Shown piece after piece: positions 50,760 to 58,145 of a DNA stretch of 64,000 nt. This DNA is from Thermoplasma volcanium GSS1 (GTDB lineage: Archaea > Thermoplasmatota > Thermoplasmata > Thermoplasmatales > Thermoplasmataceae). How positions within the stretch are numbered: position 1 is the first letter of the stretch; each line of letters opens with the position of its first letter. A program made the translations under genes and the position numbers. A model generated the notes under the pieces. It was not told the origin of the DNA. It made no database searches and saw only the letters and a list, made by a program, of their open reading frames with translations. The DNA lies in assembly GCF_000011185.1 (NCBI RefSeq), contig NC_002689.2:682001-746000 (forward strand), given 5' to 3'.

Positions 50760-51641
50760 TTATCGCAACTTTGCCCTGTGCCATTCAAGAAACTTTTTTG
50801 ATTCCTTTAAATCCCTATCTATCGTTGTGCTTTCCATTTCCTGGACTTCCCTCTGCAGTTTTTCGCTTCGAGAATTTTTAAGGATACTGCCAACTATTAT
50901 ACGATTGTTATCGCCTATTGAAATGAGCTTTCTGTCAAACATGCCATCGTGCAGCCTGCAAAGCAGCAAGGTATTATAAAGATTTCCGGCATCTTCCGGA
51001 AAAAGAAATACATCCTTTATGTGGGAAACAACTAACAGGTCATCGACGTCTATTCCGCATAATAGGCATCTGTGGCCATAGTATTCAAGGGCTTTCTTTC
51101 TTAATTTGCCCTGGAATAGCCTTGAATTTAAAAACGCCTTCCTGAACTTGGGATCAATGGCATCTAAATTAAGGGTTTGTTCCTTGCCGGAAGTTGATAT
51201 TACTCCAGCCGCGCTGAGTATTGTATCCAGCATCTTTTCATCCTGTATGTATTTGAAGACCTGCATTCCCTCTGAATCTATAAGGGAAAGCGGAACCAGT
51301 TTCTCGAAGATCACGAAGTCCTCCAGAATAAGGCACAGCACAGGTTCCTTTTCCCCTTTATTGTATTTGCTGAACCGTTCTTCTAGTTCCGACTTGCTGC
51401 CCATGCCGTTCATAGTACCGTATTTATCCCACATCTCGTCAACAGTCAGGAACTATTTCCTTACCAGTTCGCCCATGCCGACTATCTTCCCATCCCCGGT
51501 TTTAAAGAATAGCGGTATGTGGTCTCCGACATTCAACTGAGTTGTCCTTGTCGTCCAGAAGTTGAATTCTCCACCCCTATAATTCAATTTGAGATAATCC
51601 AGCCACCCCTTGTCCGTATGATATATGATCCCATAAACCAT
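50760..51641 (-). pseudogene. EVE/PUA-like plus HNH endonuclease, interrupted by TAG
   Basis: ATG 51641 gives MVYGIIYHTDKGWLDYLKLN and FNFWTTRTTQLNVGDHIPLF with GDGKIVGMGELVRK, a pattern like EVE/PUA-type domains that bind modified bases. A TAG follows at 51453-51455, and the same frame goes on as FLTVDEMWDKYGTMNGMGSK. The C-terminal part is an HNH nuclease: HRCLLCGIDVDDLLVVSHIK and NTLLLCRLHDGMFDRKLIS. The domain order suggests a restriction enzyme for modified DNA. Without readthrough, only the HNH half (from 51434) would be made. Confidence 0.7.
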
Positions 51642-52351: not shown

Positions 52352-52942
52352 ATGGTGAAAATAAAAGATGAAACGGATCTTCCTGACCATATAACATATG
52401 ATGAATACCAGAGTCTAATTAATGAGATAATTAATAATCTTTATAATCACTATTTAAACAGTAAAATAATACCATATTTAAAAGCCAGGGATGTATTGTT
52501 AGTAAACTGCATGTGGGAATTAGGCGGAAGAATATCAGATATTTTGAATATAGAAGTTAAAGATATAGATTTTATGAATAAGTTGGTAATTTTAAAAGTT
52601 AAGAAAGGAGGAGGATTTATAAACAAAATACCAGTATCAGATAATTTATTATTAGCATTCTCTAATTTCATGAGGGAACTTAATGTAAGTAATAGAAGAT
52701 TATTTAAAATGGATAGGCAAACCGCATGGAAAAAAATAAAAGGTTATGGGAATAAAATAGGGTTAAATCTGCATCCGCATATGTTCAGGCACGGACTGGC
52801 TATATATTTATTATTGAAAGGAGTTCCTATACAGGTTATTGCAAGAAGGCTAGGCCATAAGAATGCAATGACGATATTGCAGTATCATGTTGTGATTACA
52901 CCATATATGGAACGGGAAGCATTGCGTGGCGTACTATTATAG
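52352..52942 (+). CDS. Tyrosine recombinase, compact and intact
   Basis: A 196-residue integrase consisting almost only of the catalytic domain. The active-site residues are visible: Arg in WELGGRISDILNIEV, His-x2-Arg in HPHMFRHGLAIYL, the LGHKNAMTILQYH segment with His and Tyr. It would cut and join DNA at specific sites. The upstream inverted repeat (52202-52230) is a candidate site. A second, decayed copy lies 1.1 kb downstream. The stop is TAG. Confidence 0.88.
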   Translation: MVKIKDETDLPDHITYDEYQSLINEIINNLYNHYLNSKIIPYLKARDVLLVNCMWELGGRISDILNIEVKDIDFMNKLVILKVKKGGGFINKIPVSDNLLLAFSNFMRELNVSNRRLFKMDRQTAWKKIKGYGNKIGLNLHPHMFRHGLAIYLLLKGVPIQVIARRLGHKNAMTILQYHVVITPYMEREALRGVLL

Positions 52943-54060: not shown

Positions 54061-54516
54061 AAGGAGAGGATTCCATTTCTGAAAGCTAGGGGTATGTTTG
54101 ATGGTGAACTGCATGTGGGAATTAGGCGGAAGAAATCAGATATAATAAATATAAAAAAGATGATAACAGTAATTGTAAAGAAAAGGCATAATTTTGTTAA
54201 TAAAGTCCCTATATATGATGATTTGTTACTGAATGCATCCTTATTTACAAGCAAATACAATATTAATGGAAAACTATTCAATATAAGCAGACAAAGGGCG
54301 TAGAAGATAATACATGAATATGGCCTTAAAATAGGACTGGAATTGTATCCTCATATGTTCGGGCACGTATTGGCCATATACTTATTATTGAAGGAAGTTC
54401 CGATTCAGGTAATAGCAAGAAGATTAAGCCATAAGAATACAATGACCACACTACAGTATTACTTTGTAATTACGCTGTAAATTGAAAGAGAAGCACTAAG
54501 AGTGGTGATATTTTAA
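54061..54516 (+). pseudogene. Decayed second copy of the tyrosine recombinase
   Basis: It aligns with the intact enzyme at 52352: VNKVPIYDDLLLNASLF, then a TAG at 54301-54303 where the intact copy has Trp (TAWKK against RA-stop-KII), then HMFGHVLAIYLLLKEVPIQV. The His-x2-Arg is now His-x2-Gly, and GH is SH (RRLSHKN), so activity would be lost even without the stop. The N-terminal Arg is also changed. Confidence 0.82.
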
Positions 54517-54553
54517 TTTATATGTGTAATACATGCTTCAAAAATGGGTATTA

Positions 54554-55693
54554 TCAAAGTTTTTGATTTTCCAGCAATTTGTTTAACTCCATTTTTGACT
54601 TTCTATAGTTCATTAAATCGTGTTGTTTTATGCTGTTCCTCATATTATCATACTCACTTGAAGTCATAACCGATTCATGAATCCTTGATATATATGCAGG
54701 CCTATTGTTCTTAATGTCCATATCTACATTTTGGTTTTGGAGAGTACGCCAGAAGAGACTTTTTAAATTTTCGTCATTCCCAAATATAGAATCTTCATTT
54801 TTATGTATTTCCGCATTATTAGATTTATTAGAAATTTTAGGTAAAGCCAGATTGGTTTTTTCGAATATTCGGGTATTCGGCACTTTTTTGAAATTACCGT
54901 GCCCACCATTGTATATTTCTGCAGTGATATCTGAAATTATAAAACTCGAATAATGTGGGGCAGAAACATGGCCATAAGGAGATGCAAGGTTACTGAATAT
55001 TCTTGGTATATCAGTACTTATTATTCCCTTATCAGATTCGTGAATTTTATCTAAATATTTTATAATATACTGATATGAAATATTTGCATTTAAATATGAT
55101 GAATATGTGAAACTAATAAATGGAACCAAAGTACTTTCCTGTGTAATCCAGTTAGGCAGAGAATTTTGAATTGTTTTATGGTCCTTTATATAAAATAGAG
55201 GGCTAAATACAATATTATTATTTAGAAATTTTATTGAATTATCATTCAATAATTCCGATTGAAAAATATAAAAATCAGTATTTAATTCACTTGACAGATC
55301 AAAGATAAATTTCTTAATTTTAGCGGATGTTTCAGAATCCCTATTTTTAAAAACATAGTCTTTTACATTGCCTGTTAATTTAATATAAACTGCTTTAAGG
55401 CAGTTCTTATTCTCTATCCTTATAAAATAGTCTTCTATTTTATTTTTTAATGTCGCTAAATAATCATTTGTATTTAAAATACTATTAAGTTCTTTATTAC
55501 TAATGGGTTCTTCATAAATAAATAAATTTCTTATTCTCGTTAAGGGAATGTGTGCACCTAAATGGCTTTTAGCGTTAATATCATACCTATTAACAAATCT
55601 ATTTGGTGTTTCTACATTTCCTTTATCATACTTTATATTCAATCTTGTTAAATTGTTTTCGCTTCTTTCTTCCGGTCTTATGTTTATTCCCAT
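54554..55693 (-). CDS. Unknown 379-residue protein, third gene of a tight operon
   Basis: A soluble protein with no recognised family. Notable segments: GNVETPNRFVNRYDINAKSH near the start, a region with alternating strands and helices (AVYIKLTGN; LVPFISFTYSSYLNANISY), APHYSSFIISDITAEIYNGG near 245-265, and a C-terminal ISRIHESVMTSSEYDNMRNS. The TIM-barrel-like alternation and ETP start vaguely recall tRNA-guanine transglycosylases, but no zinc site is visible, so this is only a hint. It overlaps the preceding gene by 10 nt. Confidence 0.7.
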   Translation of the reverse strand: MGINIRPEERSENNLTRLNIKYDKGNVETPNRFVNRYDINAKSHLGAHIPLTRIRNLFIYEEPISNKELNSILNTNDYLATLKNKIEDYFIRIENKNCLKAVYIKLTGNVKDYVFKNRDSETSAKIKKFIFDLSSELNTDFYIFQSELLNDNSIKFLNNNIVFSPLFYIKDHKTIQNSLPNWITQESTLVPFISFTYSSYLNANISYQYIIKYLDKIHESDKGIISTDIPRIFSNLASPYGHVSAPHYSSFIISDITAEIYNGGHGNFKKVPNTRIFEKTNLALPKISNKSNNAEIHKNEDSIFGNDENLKSLFWRTLQNQNVDMDIKNNRPAYISRIHESVMTSSEYDNMRNSIKQHDLMNYRKSKMELNKLLENQKL

Positions 55694-56181
55694 TTTAATT
55701 CAGGCACCTTAGTCTTTGTTGCATATTCAGGATAATTCCTGTATACATACCTTAATATGCCCTTTGTATCCCATTCATCCCAATCATATTTGTTTTTTCT
55801 AAGTTTTTCAAGGTCCTCATTGTTTATATTTTTACTTTTAATAACTTTATTTATGTATTCTTTCCCGCTTTCTGTGATGGCATAAGTAGCGTGGCCCTCA
55901 CCCCTGTTAAATTTTATTATTTTGCCATCATTAATTAACTTCACTACTATATCGGAAACTAGCTGGCTATAAGGCCCATACTTATCTGGATGATATAAAG
56001 CGGAAATATTAGTAAATACTTCCTTCACAGTAAGGAAAACCTGCTTTTGCATCATTGTTTTCCCTGAAATTTTACCGTAATTTAACAGTAAAAGTATAAT
56101 ATCCTCTACATTAAGTTCTTTACTATTTTCATAGTCGCTCAATAATTTATCCCAGTCTGTTTCTATTTTTACATTTATCAT
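55684..56181 (-). CDS. Winged-helix protein with KYGPYS motif (SocA/Panacea-like)
   Basis: A 165-residue protein. LLNYGKISGKTMMQKQVFLT, ISALYHPDKYGPYSQLVSDI and VKLINDGKIIKF resemble SocA-like/Panacea antitoxin-type and DUF4065 folds, where KYGPYS is conserved; a helical tail follows. The start overlaps the zinc-ribbon gene by 4 nt (ATGA). Its operon position between a zinc-ribbon protein and an unknown protein suggests a regulator or antitoxin-like part of one system (inference). Confidence 0.65.
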   Translation of the reverse strand: MINVKIETDWDKLLSDYENSKELNVEDIILLLLNYGKISGKTMMQKQVFLTVKEVFTNISALYHPDKYGPYSQLVSDIVVKLINDGKIIKFNRGEGHATYAITESGKEYINKVIKSKNINNEDLEKLRKNKYDWDEWDTKGILRYVYRNYPEYATKTKVPELKWE

Positions 56182-56714
56182 ATAGATTTGCCACCATCGT
56201 ATATTATCCTTAACAACATACCATCTTTCATTTCCATTAATATATTTATAGAGATATCCCGGTTATCTATTTTTAATTTGTGATGAAACCCAATCATGTT
56301 ATTTTTATATTTGTTGTTTCCGTTTGTAATAAAATCATTTATATTTTTCTTTATGCCTCTTTGATTTACTAAATTAGAAATTAAATTTTTTAATTTAATT
56401 TCATCAACATGAAAGTTTTTTAATAATTCCTGAAATGCATCGGGTATAATAATTTTGTATTCATAATCACCTGATATACTAATTTCTAAAGGTTCTATAT
56501 TACATAGGCAATCTATTTTTTTACATTTTTTACAATGATAGGTATCTATATATAATGTATTTTCAATTTTTCCTTCTGATGAATTATCCACACCGGCTTT
56601 AATAATATGGGATAAACCTATATGTTTTGAAGTTTTAGTTGAGTTAGTATACTTTGCTTCATACTTTACTTTTTCTAAATCGCTAGAACCGCAATATTTG
56701 CAATAATCACCCAT
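56178..56714 (-). CDS. Zinc-ribbon protein, first gene of the operon
   Basis: A 178-residue protein starting at ATG 56714, which has a GGTGAT in front (an in-frame GTG 9 nt earlier is possible). It has a CKYCGSSDLEKVKYE ribbon half and a second Cys cluster YHCKKCKKIDCLCNIEP near 66-80, followed by an alpha/beta domain (IIIPDAFQELLKNF, MLLRIIYDGG). Two Cys pairs could bind one zinc, with CLC extra. No family recognised. It is followed without a gap by the KYGPYS protein. Confidence 0.68.
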   Translation of the reverse strand: MGDYCKYCGSSDLEKVKYEAKYTNSTKTSKHIGLSHIIKAGVDNSSEGKIENTLYIDTYHCKKCKKIDCLCNIEPLEISISGDYEYKIIIPDAFQELLKNFHVDEIKLKNLISNLVNQRGIKKNINDFITNGNNKYKNNMIGFHHKLKIDNRDISINILMEMKDGMLLRIIYDGGKSI

Positions 56715-56830: not shown

Positions 56831-58145
56831 TTAACTGCTTTCTTCTATTACCTTCCTTTCCTCGGCAGTTAGTCCATATAATCTATAAATAGCTATGTCA
56901 ATTTGCGTGTCCACTCTCTTAATTTCGTCTAATATTTCATAATTTTCATCAGTCTTTTTACCATTGAACTGGTTTAGTTTTTTGTTTAATGTTATAACTT
57001 TTTCAACGAGTCCCACAATCTCATCTTGTTCAGAAATAGGTATTACTTTTATTGGAAATTTTTTAGCGTTAACAATTAGTATTTTTTGAAGAAGTGTTTT
57101 TGTTGGGTCAGGATATTTTTCTTTATGATAATAATTTATTAACTTTGTATTAAGTAAAGCGAGTATGTACGTTATTCTGAATTCATTCTAATTTTTTGAT
57201 ATTAAATTAAAAGCTATTTGCGTATTATATAATTCTTCTTCAGTATAACTGGCATATATCCTAAGTGATTTACCACTAATTATCTGCCTCACAACTATAT
57301 GCGGACTTGTAAAAATCTCTTTTCCCTAAGAACAGCTAGCCAATTTCCACAGCTTATGTATTTTTTCTTGTACCAAAATATACCCTACCGTATAATGTTC
57401 TTGCCCGATAAGAGAGGCTTAAACGTTTCATTCTTTTTAGTATCTGAATGAAAAATCCGATCGCTTATTTTCTGTTGAGACTGTCCTTTGTATTTGTCAT
57501 ATGGAGTTAATACTAATGAGAAATCACATACATCAAAAAGATTTTATGTACTACTTTTCTAAATTTTTTCCAATATGGTTTTTGACATTTTGTTTATGGA
57601 AATATTAATGGCATAATCATTAAGTTCCCATTTATTCTGATTATACTGAATAATGTTCGAACAATTATTTTCATTAATTGAATTGATTTTTGCATTTCTT
57701 GAATACAAATAAACTTCACATTCTTTTAATTTTGATCTTTCTTTACTCTTCCTATAGATCAATATAACTATTTCAATCTTAACACCGTCAAAAACATCGT
57801 CAGGAAGTCTAACAATTTTGGTTATGGTGGTCTGTTTCAATAGAAGAGTCCGTGTTTTTTGTATGATTCATTGTACAAAATAGAATTGGGAATAATAAAT
57901 CCGAAATATCCATAATTTTTTAACAAATTCGCTGCTCTTTCAACAAATGCCGAGTAGGGATTCATTCTATTCTCAACCGTGGTGTAATTACTAAAAAGAT
58001 ATTTTACAATTGTAGGGTCTAACCCTTTAATATCCACATATGGCGGATTCCCGATAACGATATAAAAACCTCCATTTTTCATTATTTCCGGAAATTCTGC
58101 TTTCCATTTGAAAGACTCATCGGAAATTGATGGGCCATCAATCAA
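56831..58145 (-). pseudogene. Type IIG-like restriction-modification enzyme, C-terminal half, decayed
   Basis: Read leftwards, the upstream part has FYIVIGNPPYVDIKGLDPTI (catalytic NPPY, near 58060) and RAANLLKNYGYFGFIIPNS, shifts frame near 57850 to KQTTITKIVRLPDDVFDGVK, and loses frame again after 57559. The end (57060-56831) is VIPISEQDEIVGLVEKVITL and YRLYGLTAEERKVIE, as in Eco57I/TaqI-type C-termini. The N-terminal nuclease and SAM-binding parts are absent, cut off where the recombinase begins. Confidence 0.82.

Follow-up and report, generated by a model that had tools for sequence, protein, structure and literature searches.

The genome of Thermoplasma volcanium GSS1 comprises a single contig of 1,584,804 bp, of which a stretch of 64,000 nucleotides (G000:C1:682001-746000; hereafter the window, whose numbering is used below) was analysed. 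Within it, three minus-strand open reading frames span 54554-56714, stop codons included. The initial annotation described these genes as intact and overlapping by 4 and 10 nt, a description borne out by the ORF coordinates: genes 1 and 2 share positions 56178-56181, and genes 2 and 3 share 55684-55693. At the local base composition, the chance of such long open frames is approximately 1e-6, 4e-6 and 4e-13 for genes 1, 2 and 3, respectively, and a GGTG-type ribosome-binding motif lies upstream of all three starts. The trio is located in an island at 52-58 kb with a G+C content of 27-29%, compared with 38.6% across the whole window. The annotation's further statement, that the island contains many defence and mobile genes, holds locally, as can be seen from the intact and degenerate integrases, methylase fragments and HNH_2 gene in the vicinity:

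56178-56714, minus strand: gene 1, ATG start, 178 aa; a zinc ribbon, CKYCG...CKKC (CxxC...CxxC), and an uncharacterised, alpha/beta-looking C-terminal part
55684-56181, minus strand: gene 2, a 165-aa KYGPYS winged helix (DKYGPYS) of the PDC-M19A / DarG C-terminal / HsdS C-terminal type
54554-55693, minus strand: gene 3, a 379-aa divergent protein, very probably of the TGT superfamily
52352-52942, plus strand: integrase (Phage_integrase, E 1.9e-22) flanking the trio
54094-54520, plus strand: degenerate tyrosine-recombinase remnant just downstream of the trio, assigned by eye; its ORF 54094-54303 resembles the integrase at 52352-52942
57559-58145, minus strand: broken Eco57I/N6 adenine methylase fragments (N6_Mtase, Eco57I-type) upstream of the trio, the remains of a restriction-modification gene
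50763-51434: HNH_2 endonuclease gene near the trio

Recurrence and genomic surroundings of the trio

A search of 390 genomes of the phylum with the single gene 3 sequence returned two relatives, each embedded in the identical trio order. Iterated profiles, combined with inspection of winged-helix loci, extended the gene 3 family to 18 genomes of Thermoplasmatota plus a single viral contig. The contig in question (L018) looks like an archaeal provirus, carrying an MCM helicase and DNA-packaging-type genes along with the trio (the host and gene names being putative). Of 20 loci in which adjacency could be judged, spread over several classes and the proviral contig, 19 have gene 3 directly next to gene 2, and in the twentieth (L119) one gene separates them; L111 and L113, where contig edges were reached, stand outside this count. 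In 13 loci the three genes follow one another tightly in this order, separated by -40 to +44 nt, and a zinc-ribbon gene 1 occupies the same position in L002, L003, L007, L009, L012 and L018. Likewise, when the winged-helix loci of 250 genomes were ranked by strength, gene 3 was found near 13 of the top 14, the exception being G275. The initial annotation had made its reading depend on the genes co-occurring elsewhere; the trio is indeed conserved as a unit in other genomes. The recurrence of gene 3 beside gene 2 excludes chance as an explanation, and the three genes almost certainly constitute one functional unit.

The distribution is patchy, covering seven of 400 genomes of the class, and a search of four further genomes from the genus detected no gene 3 relative. 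Scanning of genome contigs with the single protein yielded nothing, and an alignment scan of the same contigs recovered one already-known member. Plasmids contained no relative when queried with gene 3 or a G298-order member (an architecture described below), nor did phages when queried with the G298-order member. One genome carries a second trio copy (L032, G316:C17) in which the TGT-like gene is interrupted by an in-frame TGA and is apparently a pseudogene; the other copy (L037) is intact.

Several copies are surrounded by genes of defence or mobility: HsdR/HsdS/HsdM of a Type I restriction-modification system in L012 (HsdR and HsdS assigned by eye), SLFN_AlbA_2 and HATPase_c_3 in L013, a ResIII helicase and a resolvase in L014, Mrr_N, a nucleoside-deoxyribosyltransferase-like protein and an integrase in L015, and nSTAND3-Mrr in L017. 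Others are found in different company, namely metabolic genes in L016 and proline-biosynthesis-like genes beside L070. Beside the TGT-like gene of G270, the opposite strand encodes an AAA-type ATPase resembling OLD/Gabija-type proteins together with a 234-aa partner (L118:14-1620).

Ancestry and conserved residues of the gene 3 protein

Enzymes with the TGT fold are known for replacing guanine in tRNA and, in the case of DpdA, in DNA as well. The initial annotation had noted a weak TIM-barrel or transglycosylase-like hint in the large protein, and profile comparisons have since given this hint substance: gene 3 very probably descends from the TGT superfamily, as a remote member. Aligned with archaeal TGT in hhalign, a 13-member gene 3 profile obtained a local score of 41.5, compared with a maximum of 17.3 for shuffled controls and a score of 20.7 for the reversed control. 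None of 60 shuffled controls reached the observed score, and the gene 1 and gene 2 profiles, used as further controls, scored approximately 15. End-to-end alignment of the 13-member profile gave an E value of 4.3e-6, and a profile of 19 members gave a local score of 50.6 and a global E value of 2.3e-7. The global mode fails for profile A12 and for the queuine-type TGT profile; thus, the claim rests on the local score, its controls and whole-genome retrieval. The last of these, which we regard as the cleanest test of TGT ancestry, employed a profile of ten gene 3 members excluding the window protein (A15), run against 26 whole genomes in six frames. It retrieved the G355 member, whose own protein is in the profile, and the window protein at E 5.4e-5. 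The only two remaining matches at E<=1 fell inside genuine TGT genes of G016 and G025 (E 0.011 and 0.15), both of which had been located independently of A15.

Single-protein searches of Pfam, NCBIfam and PADLOC found nothing credible for genes 1 and 3. The Pfam TGT model (PF01702) matched the gene 3 family at best E values of 0.049 and 0.091, under its gathering cut-off, and profile searches of PDB sequences gave no credible relative. Two AlphaFold models of gene 3, both of low confidence (pLDDT 54 and 59), displayed alternating strands and helices. Foldseek searches with these models returned mostly TIM barrels, none at E<=0.001, with ArcTGT 1iq8 at rank 10 for model 1 and a cryptochrome first for model 2. 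Because of this cryptochrome match and the lack of any match at E<=0.001, structure was not counted as proof; the predicted models agree only loosely with a TIM barrel.

In the window protein, the motif ETPNR occupies residues 28-32, and SRIHESVMTSSEYDNMRNSI is the counterpart of the LHNLxxxxxEIxxxRxxI helix of TGT. P30 and D255 are invariant (19/19 members), and T29, R32, E347 and Y363 are nearly so. Through members with GFDSIT, D255 can be aligned with the TGT nucleophile strand FDSASY. The Asp of the FDS strand is the nucleophile in TGT, and from the alignment D255 would be expected to serve as the nucleophile of the gene 3 protein. The second catalytic Asp (TDSG) and the GG base-binding loop are absent from all 19 members; thus, the gene 3 protein is no standard TGT, and catalysis may have been lost or changed. 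The chance that the protein acts catalytically on a base in nucleic acid is slightly short of even.

The CxCxxC sequence followed by LHD/LHE...E...R, the TGT zinc site, is present in 9 of the 19 members. The window protein lacks the zinc cysteines, as does the archaeal TGT of the same genome (L024, G000:C1:1581464-1582432), which has EWSPLF in place of CxCxxC. Overall, gene 3 resembles ArcTGT (PF01702) in length, order of elements, a TP motif near the N terminus, the Asp aligned to the nucleophile and, in half of its members, a CxCxxC...LHN-type C-terminal zinc site. It differs in lacking the (T)DSG Asp, the GG base-binding loop and PUA domains, in falling under the Pfam cut-off and in traveling with a winged helix in mobile islands.

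The winged helix, the zinc ribbon and their other partners

The initial annotation regarded none of the three proteins as belonging to a known pair. For gene 2 this must be qualified, as DarG, the PDC-M19A candidate and some HsdS proteins are known to contain a KYGPYS winged helix, which also has a PIN partner elsewhere in Thermoplasmata. Among 12 gene 2 members scanned, profile matches were obtained to PDC-M19A in 12 (best 4.7e-12), to HsdS in eight and to DarG in six. The window protein itself matches PADLOC DarG at 3.8e-5 and covers positions 8-127 of the 294 in the PDC-M19A profile, leaving the second domain uncovered. Matches to PHROGs families of unknown function were also found, and relatives in haloarchaeal plasmids and betalipothrixviruses reside in unrelated gene contexts. 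The betalipothrixvirus protein, a related winged helix of unknown function, is encoded at L023:5926-6393 (AFV6 ORF155a).

In other Thermoplasmata, sequence comparison placed weaker winged-helix relatives directly upstream of PIN-domain genes in 11 of 16 loci, two of which were assigned by eye, leaving at least nine such pairs; Pfam confirmed two of these PIN neighbours. This recurring pair looks like a toxin-antitoxin family. The genome studied here encodes a second KYGPYS winged helix at G000:C1:143426-144478 (L115:2426-3478), directly upstream of a PIN-like gene. On a phage contig (L019:5848-7622), genes of terminase and portal type enclose a winged helix fused to what we take to be a DUF488-like domain, with a protein of 266 aa encoded after it; this is probably a PDC-M19-type unit. 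In view of the DarG, HsdS and PDC-M19A matches and the pairing with PIN and DUF488-like proteins, the winged helix seems to be a partner that can be swapped between effectors directed at nucleic acid.

Two gene architectures occur in the family. A separate first gene encodes the zinc ribbon in the Thermoplasma-type branch, whereas members of the G298-order branch have it as an N-terminal fusion to the winged helix; any first gene detected in that branch encodes a protein of 96-126 aa. The latter small proteins have weak similarity to DUF4258. In one locus (L114) the first gene matches DUF4258 at E 7.9e-5, just below the Pfam cut-off, and the zinc ribbon of this locus has a faint similarity to the MqsA/YgiT finger (E 0.004-0.01, under the cut-off). 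Toxins of the DUF4258 family belong to the RelE/ParE superfamily and also occur as fusions with MqsA (PMC11980606). Window gene 1 has no match to a toxin family, DUF4258 included. A test for homology between it and the small first genes of the G298 order found none. At L120:2879-4295, the position of the TGT-like gene, next to a small first gene and a zinc-ribbon winged helix, is taken by a small protein of membrane type.

Proposed role of the trio and alternative explanations

No description of the trio combination was found in the literature searched, from which subscription journals were mostly absent. The nearest described systems are Dpd/DpdA (PMC6884629) and a BREX-related HerA/FtsK capture system, which carries a protein that its authors call TGT and occurs in defence loci of archaea and bacteria (PMC12839542). 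The latter likewise exemplifies a TGT recruited to a defence locus; however, no PglZ, HerA or DUF6079 was seen with the trio. In Dpd, too, an enzyme of the TGT superfamily is encoded in a defence or mobile setting, but no dpdB/C or preQ0 genes were seen beside the trio at the loci inspected. Both ends of the protein have been lost from phage DpdA while its catalytic core is retained; gene 3 has the opposite pattern. Membership in Dpd was rejected, the hhalign scores of gene 3 profiles against DpdA (18.6 for A11 and 23.5 for A12) being near background.

Other known systems resemble the trio through its smaller genes. DarTG shares a KYGPYS winged helix adjoining an enzyme directed at nucleic-acid bases (an activity that is predicted for gene 3), although no trio protein has a Pfam match to the macrodomain or the DarT ADP-ribosyltransferase. 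PDC-M19, a PADLOC phage-defence candidate, shares the PDC-M19A winged helix, but in L019 this is fused to the DUF488-like domain, whereas the partner in the trio is TGT-like. As in MqsRA/DUF4258 type II toxin-antitoxin systems, the L114 zinc ribbon is joined to an HTH-type protein overlapping a small RelE-superfamily gene; however, the zinc-ribbon matches are below cut-off, the window copy has no detected DUF4258, and a third, TGT-like gene is present.

Based on the type of partner that gene 2 represents, the defence and mobile neighbours and the patchy distribution, a role in conflict, toxin-antitoxin function or defence is likely, although copies among housekeeping genes (L016 and L070) count against it. 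We regard the trio as a probable, so far undescribed system of the defence or toxin-antitoxin-like kind, with a predicted activity. From the initial proposal of an undescribed defence, toxin-antitoxin-like or DNA-modification system, the conserved unit among defence and mobile genes thus stands, with base modification reduced to one option given the loss of the base-binding motif and of the second catalytic Asp of TGT. Our best explanation, to which we give even chances, is a mobile three-gene module of toxin-antitoxin or defence type built around a repurposed TGT-like base enzyme, whose chemistry is predicted. As nucleic-acid binders, the zinc ribbon and winged helix would hold the TGT-like protein or direct it to its target, much as the C-terminal domain of DarG does for DarT. 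The TGT-like protein would then attack the N-glycosidic bond in DNA or RNA via D255, exchanging or removing a base, such that an invading element is restricted or growth is arrested once the balance is disturbed. The winged-helix/zinc-ribbon unit would thus both target and restrain the enzyme, for use against mobile elements or as an addiction module, and the first-position gene may add a RelE-type component (DUF4258 being seen in one relative only). A more far-reaching version is offered tentatively, as the less probable case: the trio may represent a new class of toxin-antitoxin or immune system in archaea. Its TGT-derived enzyme, no longer able to recognise guanine, would cut or exchange some other base of host tRNA or viral DNA, with a KYGPYS winged-helix/zinc-ribbon sensor in control.

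Alternatively, the trio could insert a 7-deazaguanine-type base at specific sites in DNA (or tRNA) as a minimal archaeal counterpart of Dpd, with the winged helix and zinc ribbon directing insertion so that the island is protected or self is marked. Since the host encodes both an archaeal TGT and QueC (E 3.7e-79), it probably has preQ0 at its disposal, and this option stays alive; the TGT ancestry, the invariant nucleophile-like Asp and the nearby restriction genes are also consistent with it. The loss of the TGT proton-relay Asp and the GG motif, together with the distance from phage DpdA and the missing dpd neighbours, makes it unlikely. Loss of catalytic motifs would be readily understood if the TGT-like protein were dead and, like QTRT2 in relation to eukaryotic TGT, acted as a scaffold for nucleic-acid binding or oligomerisation. 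The effector would then be the small first gene, encoding an RNase of the RelE/DUF4258 type that the zinc-ribbon winged helix would hold. Consistent with this are the DUF4258 match in L114, the known fusion of that family to MqsA (PMC11980606) and the L120 arrangement, in which small gene and winged helix occur without a TGT-like gene. Yet D255 and the TP motif are invariant over very divergent members, window gene 1 has no DUF4258 match, and the small first proteins of the G298 order do not align with it; we consider a scaffold a doubtful explanation. A regulatory or housekeeping operon without a conflict role, for example an accessory to tRNA modification, is the least plausible: TGT relatives do modify tRNA, and the L016 and L070 copies lie among genes of metabolism, but a very patchy family with a proviral copy and defence neighbours, absent from sister species and here set in an AT-rich island, is hard to reconcile with such a function.

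If the proposed conflict module is correct, a family retaining only the nucleophile-like Asp and accompanied by a toxin-antitoxin-type winged helix would extend TGT chemistry to a new target. It would also add a conflict system to the archaea, in Thermoplasmata and their relatives, where few have been described. Finally, the KYGPYS winged helix appears to be exchangeable among very different effectors (PIN, DUF488, DarT-type, HsdS and TGT-like) and may thus provide a handle for finding more such systems.
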